Positions 2,250 to 6,571 of a stretch of 10,034 bases of DNA are shown here, piece by piece. This DNA is from Pseudomonadota bacterium (GTDB lineage Bacteria > Pseudomonadota > Gammaproteobacteria > Steroidobacterales > Steroidobacteraceae): contig JAKAFQ010000117.1 of assembly GCA_021817875.1 (NCBI GenBank), positions 1 to 10,034 of the forward strand. The letters are read 5' to 3'. How positions within the stretch are numbered: the stretch's first letter is position 1; each line of letters begins with the position of its first letter. The notes beneath the pieces are model-generated. The model searched no databases and was not told the DNA's origin. It saw nothing but the letters and a program-made list of their open reading frames with translations. The position numbers were made by a program, and so were the translations under genes.

Positions 2250-3410
2250 TCAAGCGCGTCTGCGGCGAGCCGCCGCCACGGCCAGCTGCACGGCCAGCGC
2301 GATGGCCGTGAGAAAGGCGACAGCGCTGGTGGCCAGAGTCAGATTCAGCATCCGCTCGAGCGTACGGTCCCGCAATTGCGCTCCGCGGCTCGACCACTGA
2401 GTGAGACGCAGCCTGCCGATCACGCTGTGATGGTCCAGGGCATAGATCGGCGCGCCTACCGCAGTCAGCCGCGCTCCATGCGGTCCGACAAGCCGCCGGT
2501 AGAGCCGGGCAAGGATGCCGGGCTCAGGCGCCGGTACCTGCGGGACACTGAGTTCATCGACCCGCGCAAGCGGTGCGCCGTCAGGGGCGCTCACCACCAG
2601 CTCCAGCCCGGGCCTCACGAACCGCGCCAGGTAGGCTGGAAGCCCCGGCGAGGCGAGGATCAGCCGGCCCCGGGTGTGCAGATCGCGGGTGCGCAGCGTG
2701 CCGTAGCTGAGCGGTGTCGCGCCGAGCCGGTCGCGATCGTCGATCAGTACGCCGAACCGGCCGTCGGTGAGCGACAGCGGCATCGAGAATTCGACATCGT
2801 AACCACCGGCAACGATCTGCAACGCGCCGGCGATGCGCGGGTCCCGGACCGCTGATTTCCGATCATACTGACCGGTGACGATGCGGTGTGCCACGATCGG
2901 GCCGGGGCCGGTGAGCGCAAAAAATTCCGCGCGTTGCGCGCCCCGGGCATTGGCAAATCCCACCCACACCCGGTCGCCCATCGCCGATGGACGCAGTGGA
3001 TTGGCAAGTGGCGCATCGAACACCAGGTGAGGGTCCTGTACCTTCAGGAACACGTACAGCATCCGTCCCCATACCCCGGTGAGAATCGCAAAGCGGTGTG
3101 GGGCGGTGCCGTAATGCCGCCACGTGCCGCGCGCGCGCGGCCACTCGTCGGCATACCCATCGACATAAGGCGGGCCCGGCAGCAGGGCGGGGGTGAGATC
3201 ATAAGGGCCCGGGGTCAGCGGCCCGCGATAGCGGTACAGCAGCCCGATACGGCCCTGCAAAGAAGTGGCCAGCGTCGCGGCGACCGACCTCAGGGTGTGC
3301 CGTTCGCTGAGGCGCAGGGCCGATTCCATCTGACGCGCATAACGGATGCCGTCCCAGGGCAGCACCAGCGCAATCAGCAGAAGCAGCAGGAGCTTGAGCC
3401 AGGACGACAT
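2250..3410 (-). CDS. Membrane-anchored sensor-domain protein, PdsS-like, lacking a kinase domain
   Basis: A 386-residue protein with an N-terminal membrane helix (about residues 4-19, LKLLLLLLIALVLPW), a long extracytoplasmic region, a second helix (about 356-381) and a short ARRRRA tail. The central region has an YVDGYADEWP motif (82-91) followed by a predicted beta-rich segment (RFAILTGVWGRMLYVFLKVQDP), as in carbohydrate-binding or DOMON-like sensor folds. The phrase TLERMLNLTLATS just before helix 2 and the overall order match what I recall of the histidine kinase of the proteobacterial dedicated sortase system (PdsS, TIGR03785). That family continues into HAMP, HisKA and HATPase domains. 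Here a TGA follows immediately and no kinase motif is seen downstream in any frame. It is either a truncated kinase or a stand-alone sensor. The ATG at 3410 fits the signal-anchor; no strong ribosome-binding site is seen. It is divergent from the malic enzyme with a 66-nt gap. Confidence 0.7.
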   Translation of the reverse strand: MSSWLKLLLLLLIALVLPWDGIRYARQMESALRLSERHTLRSVAATLATSLQGRIGLLYRYRGPLTPGPYDLTPALLPGPPYVDGYADEWPRARGTWRHYGTAPHRFAILTGVWGRMLYVFLKVQDPHLVFDAPLANPLRPSAMGDRVWVGFANARGAQRAEFFALTGPGPIVAHRIVTGQYDRKSAVRDPRIAGALQIVAGGYDVEFSMPLSLTDGRFGVLIDDRDRLGATPLSYGTLRTRDLHTRGRLILASPGLPAYLARFVRPGLELVVSAPDGAPLARVDELSVPQVPAPEPGILARLYRRLVGPHGARLTAVGAPIYALDHHSVIGRLRLTQWSSRGAQLRDRTLERMLNLTLATSAVAFLTAIALAVQLAVAAARRRRA

Positions 3411-3476
3411 TCAGCCATCTTTCAGGTGGTCGCTTATAGTGGAGTTTTTGCGGCGCCGGTTCCACCGCCACGACTC

Positions 3477-4777
3477 ATGAAGATACCCGAGATTCTCATC
3501 GTAGAGACGGTCCACCAGCCCGGCAGTCTCGCCAAAGTGCTGCAGGTGATCGCCGAGGCCGGCCTCACCATCGAGCACCTGACGGCGGTGCGCCGCGGAC
3601 AGGGGCGAACGGTCTGGGAAATCACCCTGGAAATGGACGAACAGGCCGACGGGAGCCTCTACGAGCGCATCGGCCAGCTGCCGACCGCGCGCTTTCTCGG
3701 TAAGTCAGACCGGGTGTTCAACCGCCACCGCGGCGGCAAGATCCGCAAGGTCGCCAATCTGCCCATCAACACCCGGCAAGTGCTGCGTGACATCTACACC
3801 CCGGGGGTGGCGCGGGTGTGCCTGGCCATCCAGCAGGACCCGCACCTCGCCCACGAGTACACCGGAATCGACAACACGGTGGCGGTGATCACCAACGGCA
3901 CCGCCATACTGGGGCTCGGAAACATCGGGCCGCTGGCCGGGCTGCCCGTGATGGAGGGCAAGGCGGCGTTGTTCGCGGGGACCTCGCGGGGCTGTCAGCC
4001 GTGCCCATGCTGATCGAGGAAACCCGGCCAGACAGAGTCGTCGAATTGATCACCGGCATCCATCTCTCCTTCGGGGCGATCCAGCTGGAGGATTTCGCCG
4101 CGCCGGAGTGCTTCGAGATCGAGAACCGCCTGCGCCAGCAGCTCGCCAAGCCAGTGCTGCACGACGACCAGCACGGTACTGCCGTGGTGGTGCTGGCGGC
4201 CCTGATCAACGCGGCGCGGCGCGCACGCAGGAGCCTGCCGGAAAGCACCATCGGCCAGGTGGGATTAGGCGCGGCCGGCACCGGCATCATGCGGCTGCTG
4301 CGTGCCTACGGGGTCACCCGGTTGCTCGGTGCCGATCGTGATCCAGCGGCGATCGAGCGCATCCGCCCGCTCGGCGGCGAGGGGGCAAGCCTGGAGTCCA
4401 TCATGCAGCGAGCGGACATCGTGCTCGCCACCACCGGTGTCAAGAACCTGATTCGCCCGGAGTGGGTCCGGCCCGGCCAGATCATCCTCGCGCTGTCCAA
4501 TCCCGATCCGGAGATCGAGCCCGTCTTGGCGCGTGAGCGCGGCGCGGCCTTTGCCGCCGCCGACGGCAAGGGGATCAACAACGTGCCGGCGTTCCCGGGG
4601 TTGTTCAAGGGCGCCCTGAACGCCGGGGCCATGCGCTTCACCGACGCGATGCTCATGGCCGCGGCACAGGCCATCGCGGACCTGGCCCAGGGAGAGGAGT
4701 TGGTGCCAGACCCCCTGGACAAAGCGGTTCATGAGCACGTCGCCACCGCTGTGCGGCAGGCGAGCCTGCGCGGTTGA
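3477..4777 (+). pseudogene. NAD-type malic enzyme with N-terminal ACT domain, frameshifted
   Basis: Oxidatively decarboxylates malate to pyruvate with production of NADH or NADPH, linking the TCA cycle to pyruvate. The first frame (3477-4013) gives an ACT domain (about residues 1-75, IPEILIVETVHQPGSLAKVL) and then the malic N-terminal domain with [11 protein letters not shown] (catalytic Tyr about 107) and MEGKAALF (catalytic Lys about 162). It then runs into a spurious tail and TGA at 4011-4013. The family sequence resumes one frame over, [13 protein letters not shown], and continues to TGA at 4777. That part has EDFAAPECFEIE and HDDQHGTA metal-site motifs, the dinucleotide loop GLGAAGTG (4262-4285), LSNPDPEIEP and GKGINNVPAFPGLFKG. 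Adding one G to the GGGG run at 3977-3980 would restore an unbroken ~433-residue enzyme. Both halves are otherwise intact, so a sequencing error or very recent lesion is likely. The ACT domain suggests amino-acid or other small-ligand regulation. A TATAGT hexamer lies at 3435-3440, without a good -35. Confidence 0.9.
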
Positions 4778-4883: not shown

Positions 4884-5768
4884 TCAGGCGGGAACCGGCT
4901 CGGGGGTCAGAACCCCGCGCAGCTTGCCGAGGGCATTGGCCTCGATCTGCCGGATCCGCTCGGCCGACACGCCGTACTTTTCGGCCAGTTCGTGCAGTGT
5001 CGCCTTCTCGTCGCTCATCCATCGGCGCTGCAGGATGTCGCGGCTGCGCGTATCCAGGTGCTCGAGCGCACTGCGCAGACGGGTCGAGGAGTCGTGTTCC
5101 CACTCGGAGTTTTCCACCTGCTCGGCCGGATCGGCCTCGGGCGCGGGCAGATAGGCGGCCGGACTGTAGGTGTCCTCCTCGTCGGCGTCGGGGGAGGGGT
5201 CGAATGACATGTCATGCGCAGCCAGGCGCTTTTCCATCTCATTGACCTCACCGGTCGTCACGCCCAGGTCGCGGGCGACCGCCGCGGTTTCCTCGACGGA
5301 CAGCCAGGTGAGGTTTTTCTTCAGCCGCCGCAGATTGAAGAACAGCTTGCGCTGTGCCTTGGTGGTGGCAATCTTCACCAGGCGCCAGTTGCGCAGCACG
5401 TACTCGTGAATCTCGGCCCGGATCCAGTGAACCGCGAAGGACACCAGGCGCACGTTGAGCCCTGGATCGAATCGCTTGACGGCCTTCATCAGACCCACAT
5501 TGCCTTCCTGAATGAGGTCGCCAAACGGCAGGCCATAGCCTCGGTATCCGCGGGCAATGTGCACCACGAAGCGCAGATGCGACAGAACCAGCTTGCGTGC
5601 CGCCTCCAGATCTTCCTCACTGCGGAAACGTTCGGCCAGCTCCCGTTCCTGCTCACGGTCCAGCACCGGAATACGGCTCACCCGGTCAATATAGGCATCC
5701 ACGCTGCCGACCGGGCCGGTAATCGCCAGATCGCAGCGCCTCGCGATCAATGCTGTGCTTGCGGTCAT
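4884..5768 (-). CDS. rpoH: RNA polymerase sigma-32 factor (heat-shock sigma)
   Basis: Directs RNA polymerase to heat-shock promoters. The 294-residue protein matches the family along its length: region 2 with [35 protein letters not shown] and [26 protein letters not shown] (about 60-132), the diagnostic RpoH box QRKLFFNLR (139-147), region 3, and the region 4.2 helix-turn-helix (about 256-284, [18 protein letters not shown]). The ATG at 5768 is chosen over the ATG at 5804 because it has a GGAG ribosome-binding site (bases 5774-5777, complement) 5 nt away, and because the upstream ATG lies inside the operator and probable promoter. E. coli RpoH is 284 residues. Regulation: a perfect CIRCE operator overlaps the likely promoter, so HrcA repression is inferred. 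In many gammaproteobacteria rpoH follows ftsX; here it is a separate transcription unit. Confidence 0.97.
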
Positions 5769-5794
5769 GCGTGCTCCGAAACTCTGTGCAGCCA

Positions 5795-5824
5795 ATATTA
5801 GCACTCGGGGTATGTGAGTGCTAA
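5795..5824 (-). promoter_or_regulatory. Probable sigma-70 promoter of rpoH overlapped by CIRCE
   Basis: Read on the minus strand, TTAGCA (5819-5824) as -35 and TAATAT (5795-5800) as -10 are 18 nt apart, each matching 4 of 6 consensus bases. Transcription would start near 5788, leaving about 20 nt of leader that contains the GGAG ribosome-binding site. The -35 hexamer and half of the -10 lie inside the CIRCE arms, which fits repression by promoter occlusion. The hexamers alone are modest; the geometry is the main support. Confidence 0.45.
5798..5824. promoter_or_regulatory. CIRCE operator (HrcA binding site) upstream of rpoH
   Basis: Left arm TTAGCACTC (5798-5806), 9-nt spacer (5807-5815), right arm GAGTGCTAA (5816-5824). 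Both arms equal the CIRCE consensus exactly and the spacer has the canonical length. CIRCE is the operator of the heat-sensitive repressor HrcA, classically in front of groESL and dnaK-type operons. The site ends 29 nt upstream of the rpoH start codon. The other side faces the cytochrome b561 gene, whose start is about 160 nt away, so rpoH is the more likely target. Confidence 0.93.
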
Positions 5825-5845
5825 TCTGCCTGAAAGGTTCCCTGA

Positions 5846-5983: not shown

Positions 5984-6571
5984 ATGCTCAGTCCCCGTCA
6001 CCGCCAGGATTCCGCCTCCGTAAACGCCCCCCTGAATTACGATGGCTTCAGCATCCTTCTGCACTGGCTCACCGCGGTCCTGGTGGGCACTCTGTGGACC
6101 CTCGGCCAGTGCTTCAGCTACTTCGCCCGAGGTGTCCCCCGCCATGCGGCGCTTTCCATACATATCCTGCTGGGTATCACCCTCGGCGCGGTTCTGCTGG
6201 TGCGGATCGCCTGGCGATCGAGCGCCGGTCGCCGGCTGCCGGCGGCTGATTCAGGCTGGCCGGGGCGCCTGGCCCAAAGCGCCCATCACGGCTTGTATGT
6301 GTTGCTGGTGGTGACGGTGGCACTCGGGATTTCCCGGGTGTGGCTGCAGGGTACCCACGTGTTCGATTGGTTCGCCTTTGCCAGACCGGCGTTCAGCACG
6401 CGGGCGCTGACGCGGACCGTCGGGGGGCTGCACGGCGACTTCGCAGACATCGTCGTGATTCTGGCGGGCCTGCACGCCGCCGCGGCGCTCGCGCACCACT
6501 ACCTCCTGCGTGACTCCGTGCTGCAGCGCATGCTGCCTCGAAAGAACAAGATTCGTACGGATGCAGAGTAA
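5984..6571 (+). CDS. Cytochrome b561 family membrane protein
   Basis: A 195-residue diheme b-type cytochrome of the inner membrane, of the CybB/YodB type (PF01292-like), which passes electrons between quinol or other carriers and partners; the specific partner cannot be told. Four membrane helices are visible with family histidines: H27 in LLHWLTA, H60 in SIHILLG, H101/H102 in AHHGLYVLLVV, then H150 and H164, spaced 14 residues apart as in family heme-ligand pairs, and H171 in AHHYLLRD. The ending DSVLQRMLP is also typical. The ATG at 5984 is chosen over the upstream in-frame start at 5921 because AGGAA (5974-5978) sits 5 nt before it and the added N-terminus has no family character. The stop is 10 nt before mutM, so the two are probably co-transcribed. 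Confidence 0.92.
   Translation: MLSPRHRQDSASVNAPLNYDGFSILLHWLTAVLVGTLWTLGQCFSYFARGVPRHAALSIHILLGITLGAVLLVRIAWRSSAGRRLPAADSGWPGRLAQSAHHGLYVLLVVTVALGISRVWLQGTHVFDWFAFARPAFSTRALTRTVGGLHGDFADIVVILAGLHAAAALAHHYLLRDSVLQRMLPRKNKIRTDAE

Follow-up and report, generated by a model that had tools for sequence, protein, structure and literature searches.

A CIRCE operator overlaps a putative sigma-E-type promoter of rpoH in a Steroidobacteraceae bacterium and in many of its relatives

The rpoH gene of the window, as we call the whole 10,034-nt stretch of Steroidobacteraceae DNA analysed here, is preceded by a CIRCE, the operator of the repressor HrcA, which lies in a fixed register with sigma-E-like and extended -10-like promoter elements; this arrangement recurs before rpoH in relatives of the bacterium, and the presence of the operator mostly goes together with the presence of hrcA. 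Judging from these sequence patterns, we consider it probable, with a chance of roughly three in four, that the rpoH promoter is a compound one, in which the operator of HrcA overlaps both a sigma-E promoter and an extended -10 element in such a way that HrcA vetoes transcription and sigma-E activates it. The HrcA/CIRCE and sigma-32 circuits are usually presented as parallel, and the level of sigma-32 as set mainly post-transcriptionally, as in E. coli. The initial annotation of this DNA presented HrcA acting on rpoH as a departure from the usual wiring; in the class samples described below, an operator before rpoH is the majority state and no oddity.

Both 9-nt arms of the operator match the CIRCE consensus without a mismatch and are separated by a 9-nt spacer, exactly as had been annotated, and the interval proposed at that time, 5795-5824, does contain the CIRCE but starts 3 nt too early, the operator proper beginning at 5798. 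The three additional nucleotides (5795-5797) are conserved among relatives, but they are promoter-like and their conservation is one-sided. That the conservation beyond the right arm might reflect a longer palindrome was considered and rejected, because the mirror position, -3, is not conserved. No other sequence in the window matches the CIRCE with three or fewer mismatches, and none of 200 dinucleotide shuffles gave any such match. The operator overlaps the promoter-like elements and is separated by 29 nt (5769-5797) from the ATG of rpoH, whose product scores above the cut-off of the equivalog model TIGR02392 (Table 1). The mechanically made list of open reading frames opens the rpoH frame at GTG 5804, within the CIRCE; ATG 5768 is favoured because the 294-residue RpoH that begins there aligns from residue 1 with its counterparts in the relatives' loci L001 and L002, where the operator lies 30 and 29 nt from the start, respectively. 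With this start, the distance of 29 nt given in the initial annotation holds. The nearest relatives by RpoH are gammaproteobacterial MAGs; the RpoH of L001 is 90% identical, and that of a Steroidobacteraceae MAG among them (L004) is 80% identical.

Table 1. Features of the window discussed in the text
Feature	Positions	Strand	Remarks
rpoH (sigma-32), ATG at 5768	4884-5768	-	TIGR02392, 407.3 bits against a cut-off of 323.1
GGAG, likely ribosome-binding site	5774-5777	-	by eye; 5 nt upstream of ATG 5768
Extended -10-like element TGCTAATAT, right CIRCE arm plus three bases	5795-5803	-	closing T conserved
CIRCE (HrcA operator) TTAGCACTC-N9-GAGTGCTAA, palindromic	5798-5824	-	exact match; kept before rpoH in relatives
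Sigma-E-like -10, TCACA	5813-5817	-	4/5 to TC[TA][AG]A; 17-nt spacer to the -35
Sigma-E-like -35, GGAACCT	5835-5841	-	6/7 to GGAACTT; register with CIRCE kept in relatives
Cytochrome b561-like gene, divergent from rpoH	5984-6571	+	PF01292, 81.6 bits
Malic enzyme part 1: ACT and start of malic N-terminal domain	2886-4013	+	
Malic enzyme part 2: rest	3818-4777	+	

Conservation of the site in relatives had been suggested as a check, and the operator is indeed conserved there. Among 80 loci gathered by RpoH similarity, in which a CIRCE with at most three mismatches was sought within 500 nt before rpoH, 46 carry the operator, including 29 of the closest 30; the only exception among these, L010, begins inside rpoH. 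At the level of genomes, 29 of the closest 30 relatives contain a CIRCE with at most two mismatches, and 26 contain exactly two sites. A wider sample comprised 274 genomes of the class to which the near relative G001 belongs, of which 252 gave an rpoH match (E <= 1e-60), 199 some CIRCE with no more than one mismatch, and 200 an hrcA match (E <= 1e-20). The 130 rpoH places that scored best with TIGR02392, which come from 128 genomes (G062 and G206 contributed two each), have a CIRCE with three or fewer mismatches upstream of rpoH in 106 cases: 54 of these operators are perfect, 32 have one mismatch, 10 have two and 10 have three. The reversed CIRCE pattern found nothing below five mismatches in the same 130 upstream regions (three loci were read on the wrong strand). 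In a second batch of 30 genomes, hand-picked from the lower-scoring rest of the class, 18 have the operator before rpoH.

At the level of the phylum, the exact composite of sigma-E-like promoter and CIRCE occurs in 12 of 398 genomes, which is a lower bound because the composite pattern tolerates no mismatch. The gene downstream encodes RpoH in eight of the twelve (TIGR02392 over cut-off), ClpB in one (L318) and, by eye, GroES in one (L317); the remaining two are L311 and L312. The ClpB case (G102:C8:47854-47895) is a GAACTT-CIRCE composite before clpB in a genome whose rpoH place is without CIRCE.

The divergent cytochrome b561-like gene of the window lies on the opposite strand and begins at a distance of 160 nt from the operator, and it may be asked whether the operator serves this gene, or both genes. 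We regard this as extremely improbable, since in 29 loci besides the window the CIRCE remains with rpoH although the neighbour varies, and both the sigma-E-like and the extended -10-like elements face rpoH; an operator dedicated to the divergent gene was rejected on the ground that the neighbours differ across relatives. In many of these 29 relatives, a co-directional ORF before rpoH ends like FtsX by eye, and FtsX was confirmed by Pfam in both loci tested (L007 and L038), while L001 apparently has a divergent b561-like gene as in the window, again by eye.

Several other features of the window may be recorded here. Between positions 5824 and 9668, ftsX, the usual gene before rpoH in relatives, is absent, and ftsY and rsmD follow 3 kb further on. 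An ACT-domain malic enzyme (2886-4777, plus strand) is split over two frames by a frameshift, either real or from sequencing. The protein encoded at 2250-3410 on the minus strand has a partial N-terminal similarity to the sortase-system histidine kinase TIGR03785 (96.7 bits, far under the cut-off) and gave no Pfam match, and a DUF924 protein (PF06041, 190 bits) is encoded at 846-1583, also on the minus strand.

The promoter-like sequences around the operator became apparent when 47 rpoH sites were aligned on the CIRCE. The alignment contains a conserved GGAAC about 16 nt before the operator, a conserved TAA opening the spacer and a conserved AAT after the right arm. The sigma-E-like promoter under the rpoH CIRCEs has the form GGAACTT-N16-TCTAA, with the -10 element made up of the last bases of the left arm and the first bases of the spacer. 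We scored the sites against GGAACTT and TC[TA][AG]A about 16 nt apart, which we take to be the sigma-E consensus; the score runs to 12, and 10 or more was counted as a match. Of the 106 rpoH CIRCEs of the class sample, 82 reach this score and 24 fall below it. When flanks and spacer were shuffled with the arm kept, on average 0.98 of the 106 sites did so, and never more than 4 in any of 50 runs. As a further control we used 32 deduplicated groESL CIRCEs with at most two mismatches from the loci already collected, and none of them scored 10 or more. The position of the match is also fixed: among the 82 scoring sites, 61 have it at offset -16, 8 at -17 and 3 at -15, and in the remaining 10, at -30 to -32, the whole sigma-E-like promoter sits just before the operator. 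The flanks of the rpoH CIRCEs are diverse, forming 104 clusters from 106 sequences at 70% identity, and 65 of these clusters match at least five of the seven bases of GGAACTT at -16, whereas the mean for other offsets is 0.7 clusters. In the lower-scoring batch, 12 of the 18 operators before rpoH reach a sigma-E score of 10 and 6 do not. An operator combined with a sigma-E score of 10 or more is found in 82 of the 130 best-scoring rpoH places of the class, where it is the majority state, and in 12 of the 30 places of the lower-scoring batch.

The right arm of the operator together with the three following bases reads TGCTAA-N-N-T, i.e., an extended -10 element. Its closing T is present in 98 of the 106 rpoH CIRCEs of the class sample versus 3 of the 32 groESL CIRCEs, and in 43 of 46 relatives, the window included. 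As TGCTAATAT makes a good extended -10, it is conceivable that HrcA represses rpoH through this housekeeping promoter only and that the sigma-E-like elements have decayed or gone out of use in the lineage of the window, whose own sigma-E match, at 10/12 with a -10 of TCACA and a 17-nt spacer, is a middling and loose one. We consider this unlikely. The chance of such a score at the fixed register is 0.0011, GGAAC in register is retained by close relatives such as L001-L005, and 39 of 46 rpoH sites of the relatives set, the window included, reach a score of 10 (L013, the 47th site, was left out as it has too little flank); the 17-nt spacing is seen in 11 of these 39. The TC of the -10 in the window coincides with the last two bases of the left arm. 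The initial annotation had described a plausible -35/-10 pair overlapping the CIRCE without specifying which; the pair with the best support is the sigma-E-like one at 5841-5835 and 5817-5813. Matches to rpoE were found in all 15 of the relatives' genomes searched, 14 of them over the cut-off.

The distribution of hrcA agrees with a compound promoter of the kind we favour. In the genomes of the 30 closest relatives, hrcA was matched in 29 and exceeded the cut-off in 28, including the nearest two (G001 and G002), so that the absence of hrcA, which had been named as evidence against HrcA control, is not what the relatives display; G003 has no match and G013 only a fragment of the gene. In the class sample, an hrcA match is present in the genomes of 98 of 106 rpoH places with CIRCE versus 9 of 24 places without it (Fisher p = 2e-8), and in the lower-scoring batch in 16 of 18 versus 3 of 12, where lack of hrcA means that no match was found and some of the sampled genomes are surely incomplete. 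The nine operator-less places in genomes with hrcA include two second copies of rpoH (L245 and L291) as well as L229. In the latter (in G142), a repeat resembling the CIRCE, with a spacer of apparently 8 nt, lies on a sigma-E match before rpoH; it was scored as negative since our pattern demands a 9-nt spacer. Among 12 hand-picked named genomes, 11 are without the operator, and 10 of these are without an hrcA match; Nitrococcus mobilis has an hrcA match yet no operator before rpoH, and in Thioalkalivibrio sp. ALJ21 (L038) an hrcA match goes with a perfect CIRCE upstream of rpoH. The operator thus mostly tracks hrcA, and this co-occurrence, together with the conservation of the operator, supports the earlier proposal that the site probably serves to place rpoH under HrcA.

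The same data bear on two other explanations. The site might be a relic in a lineage that has lost hrcA and no longer represses rpoH, and 8 of the 106 CIRCE-bearing places do lie in genomes that gave no hrcA match (two of the eight operators have three mismatches). For the window this appears quite improbable: its CIRCE is perfect, G001 and G002 have hrcA over the cut-off, and L184, L293 and L302, all from genomes without an hrcA match, retain by eye only degraded CIRCE-like sequence. It could also be argued that the CIRCE acts as a hairpin in the rpoH leader RNA and not as an operator, since any perfect inverted repeat can fold if transcribed and, in Bacillus, the CIRCE has been described to act on the mRNA as well. 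This explanation is hardly credible here, given that conservation follows the CIRCE arms and the presence of hrcA; besides, the hairpin as a whole would remain outside the RNA because the sigma-E-like -10 in the left arm would put the transcription start within the repeat.

The promoter-like part of the compound site can persist where the operator does not. Among 15 rpoH places with neither CIRCE nor an hrcA match in the genome, 7 keep a sigma-E score of at least 10 and 8 do not, and 7 of 15 is more than expected from a null rate of 0.11 (p = 6e-4). In L293, where the CIRCE is degraded, the sigma-E match is a full 12/12 and TGCTAAAAT is intact.

The groESL promoters of the same bacteria share the operator with rpoH and differ in the sigma factor they appear to use, having a sigma-32-like and not a sigma-E-like match. 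The best sigma-32-like match of the groESL CIRCEs is at -28 in 25 of 32 cases, and a score of at least 11/13 is reached by 15 of 32, compared to 7 of 960 shuffles and 1 of 106 rpoH sites. When the second CIRCEs of 14 closest-relative genomes were examined, 13 turned out to lie before groES, and the remaining one, located at the end of a contig, duplicates the rpoH site. Where two kinds of site are present (27 genomes), the one at rpoH is closer to the consensus in 13 genomes, has as many mismatches as the other in 14 and has more in none, the second site being confirmed as that of groES for part of these genomes. The groESL CIRCEs of G001, G002, G004, G005, G007 and G009 (L120-L125) deviate from the consensus at the same two positions of one arm (TTAGCAGCC); the rpoH sites of these six genomes have 0 to 2 mismatches.

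In close relatives, nothing with fewer than five mismatches to the CIRCE was found near hrcA-grpE-dnaKJ in the five loci examined (nine were fetched), and HrcA autoregulation was rejected for these bacteria on this ground. Elsewhere in the class, a CIRCE is located just before hrcA in at least eight genomes (G056, G096, G112, G122, G185, G201, G227 and G296). Sigma-32-like promoters were found before dnaK, where 5 of 7 relatives' loci have a match equalled by no more than 3 in 100 shuffles, and before grpE, where this is true of 4 of the 5 found in the 7 loci scored. A sigma-32 promoter on hrcA itself was rejected: of the 9 loci, out of 10, that allowed scoring, even the best (L118) was equalled in 6 of 100 shuffles; in a second scan, one of 7 loci (L142) was matched by just 2 of 100. 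The idea in the initial annotation that the HrcA and sigma-32 circuits act in series is therefore acceptable for dnaK and grpE, which mostly have sigma-32-like promoters and near which no CIRCE was found in the five loci examined, while groESL has a CIRCE of its own.

Each half of the proposed arrangement has a precedent. A CIRCE before rpoH was predicted in Geobacter sulfurreducens (Table 8 in PMC545781), which bears out in kind the remark in the initial annotation that similar wiring may have been proposed. The Geobacter operator, like that of the window, is a perfect CIRCE shortly before rpoH (there at -51), with HrcA as the presumed repressor and groESL as another target; it differs in belonging to another phylum-level lineage and in the presence of a CIRCE also at hrcA-grpE-dnaKJ, and the accessible part of that paper describes no sigma-E promoter under the operator (PMC545781). 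As for sigma-E, the P3 promoter of E. coli rpoH is sigma-E-dependent (PMC8103513), and its TGAACTT-N16-TCTGA scores 11/12 in our scan. E. coli shares the gene and the promoter pattern with the window but has no CIRCE at that promoter, and the control genomes with an hrcA match do not include it. A derivation of P3 from a decayed CIRCE was considered and dropped, the by-eye comparison being too weak to claim it. Outside the enterics, SigE of Bordetella bronchiseptica transcribes in vitro from the promoter of rpoH (fam), a sigma-E-type promoter directly before the gene (PMC3490749); the paper mentions neither CIRCE nor HrcA. In the open-access literature we found no report of an rpoH sigma-E promoter overlaid by a CIRCE, older subscription papers being outside the search. 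Permina and Gelfand (2003) or a paper on Geobacter RpoH may already have listed rpoH among the CIRCE-bearing genes of beta- or gammaproteobacteria. Priority for the union of the two known elements is therefore uncertain.

Given the sigma-E-like character of the promoter that the operator overlaps, the likely logic of rpoH transcription is sigma-E AND NOT HrcA. Free GroEL would keep HrcA active and bound over the -10/start region, and polymerase with either sigma-E or the housekeeping sigma factor would be kept out. When GroEL is taken up by unfolded protein, the activity of HrcA would drop and rpoH would be released, the rate of its transcription then being set by sigma-E, i.e., by envelope stress. 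The sigma-32 so produced would drive dnaK, grpE and groESL; groESL would receive both the sigma-32 input and the direct HrcA input, and new GroEL would restore HrcA. The GroEL-HrcA feedback in this scheme is taken from work on the HrcA of Bacillus.

It is possible, although we would put the odds somewhat below even, that the fused sigma-E promoter and HrcA operator, a unit of roughly 50 bp, is the ancestral rpoH control in Gammaproteobacteria, that promoters of the E. coli P3 type are what was left after the loss of hrcA, and that in some lineages the best operator of HrcA is the one at rpoH and not at groESL. If so, a single site would have combined envelope stress with the folding state of the cytoplasm. 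Should the fused promoter function in the way its sequence indicates, HrcA would stand above sigma-32 in many gammaproteobacteria, the load on GroEL would be reported to rpoH transcription, the sigma-E and HrcA signals would meet at one site, and the derived state would be that of E. coli.
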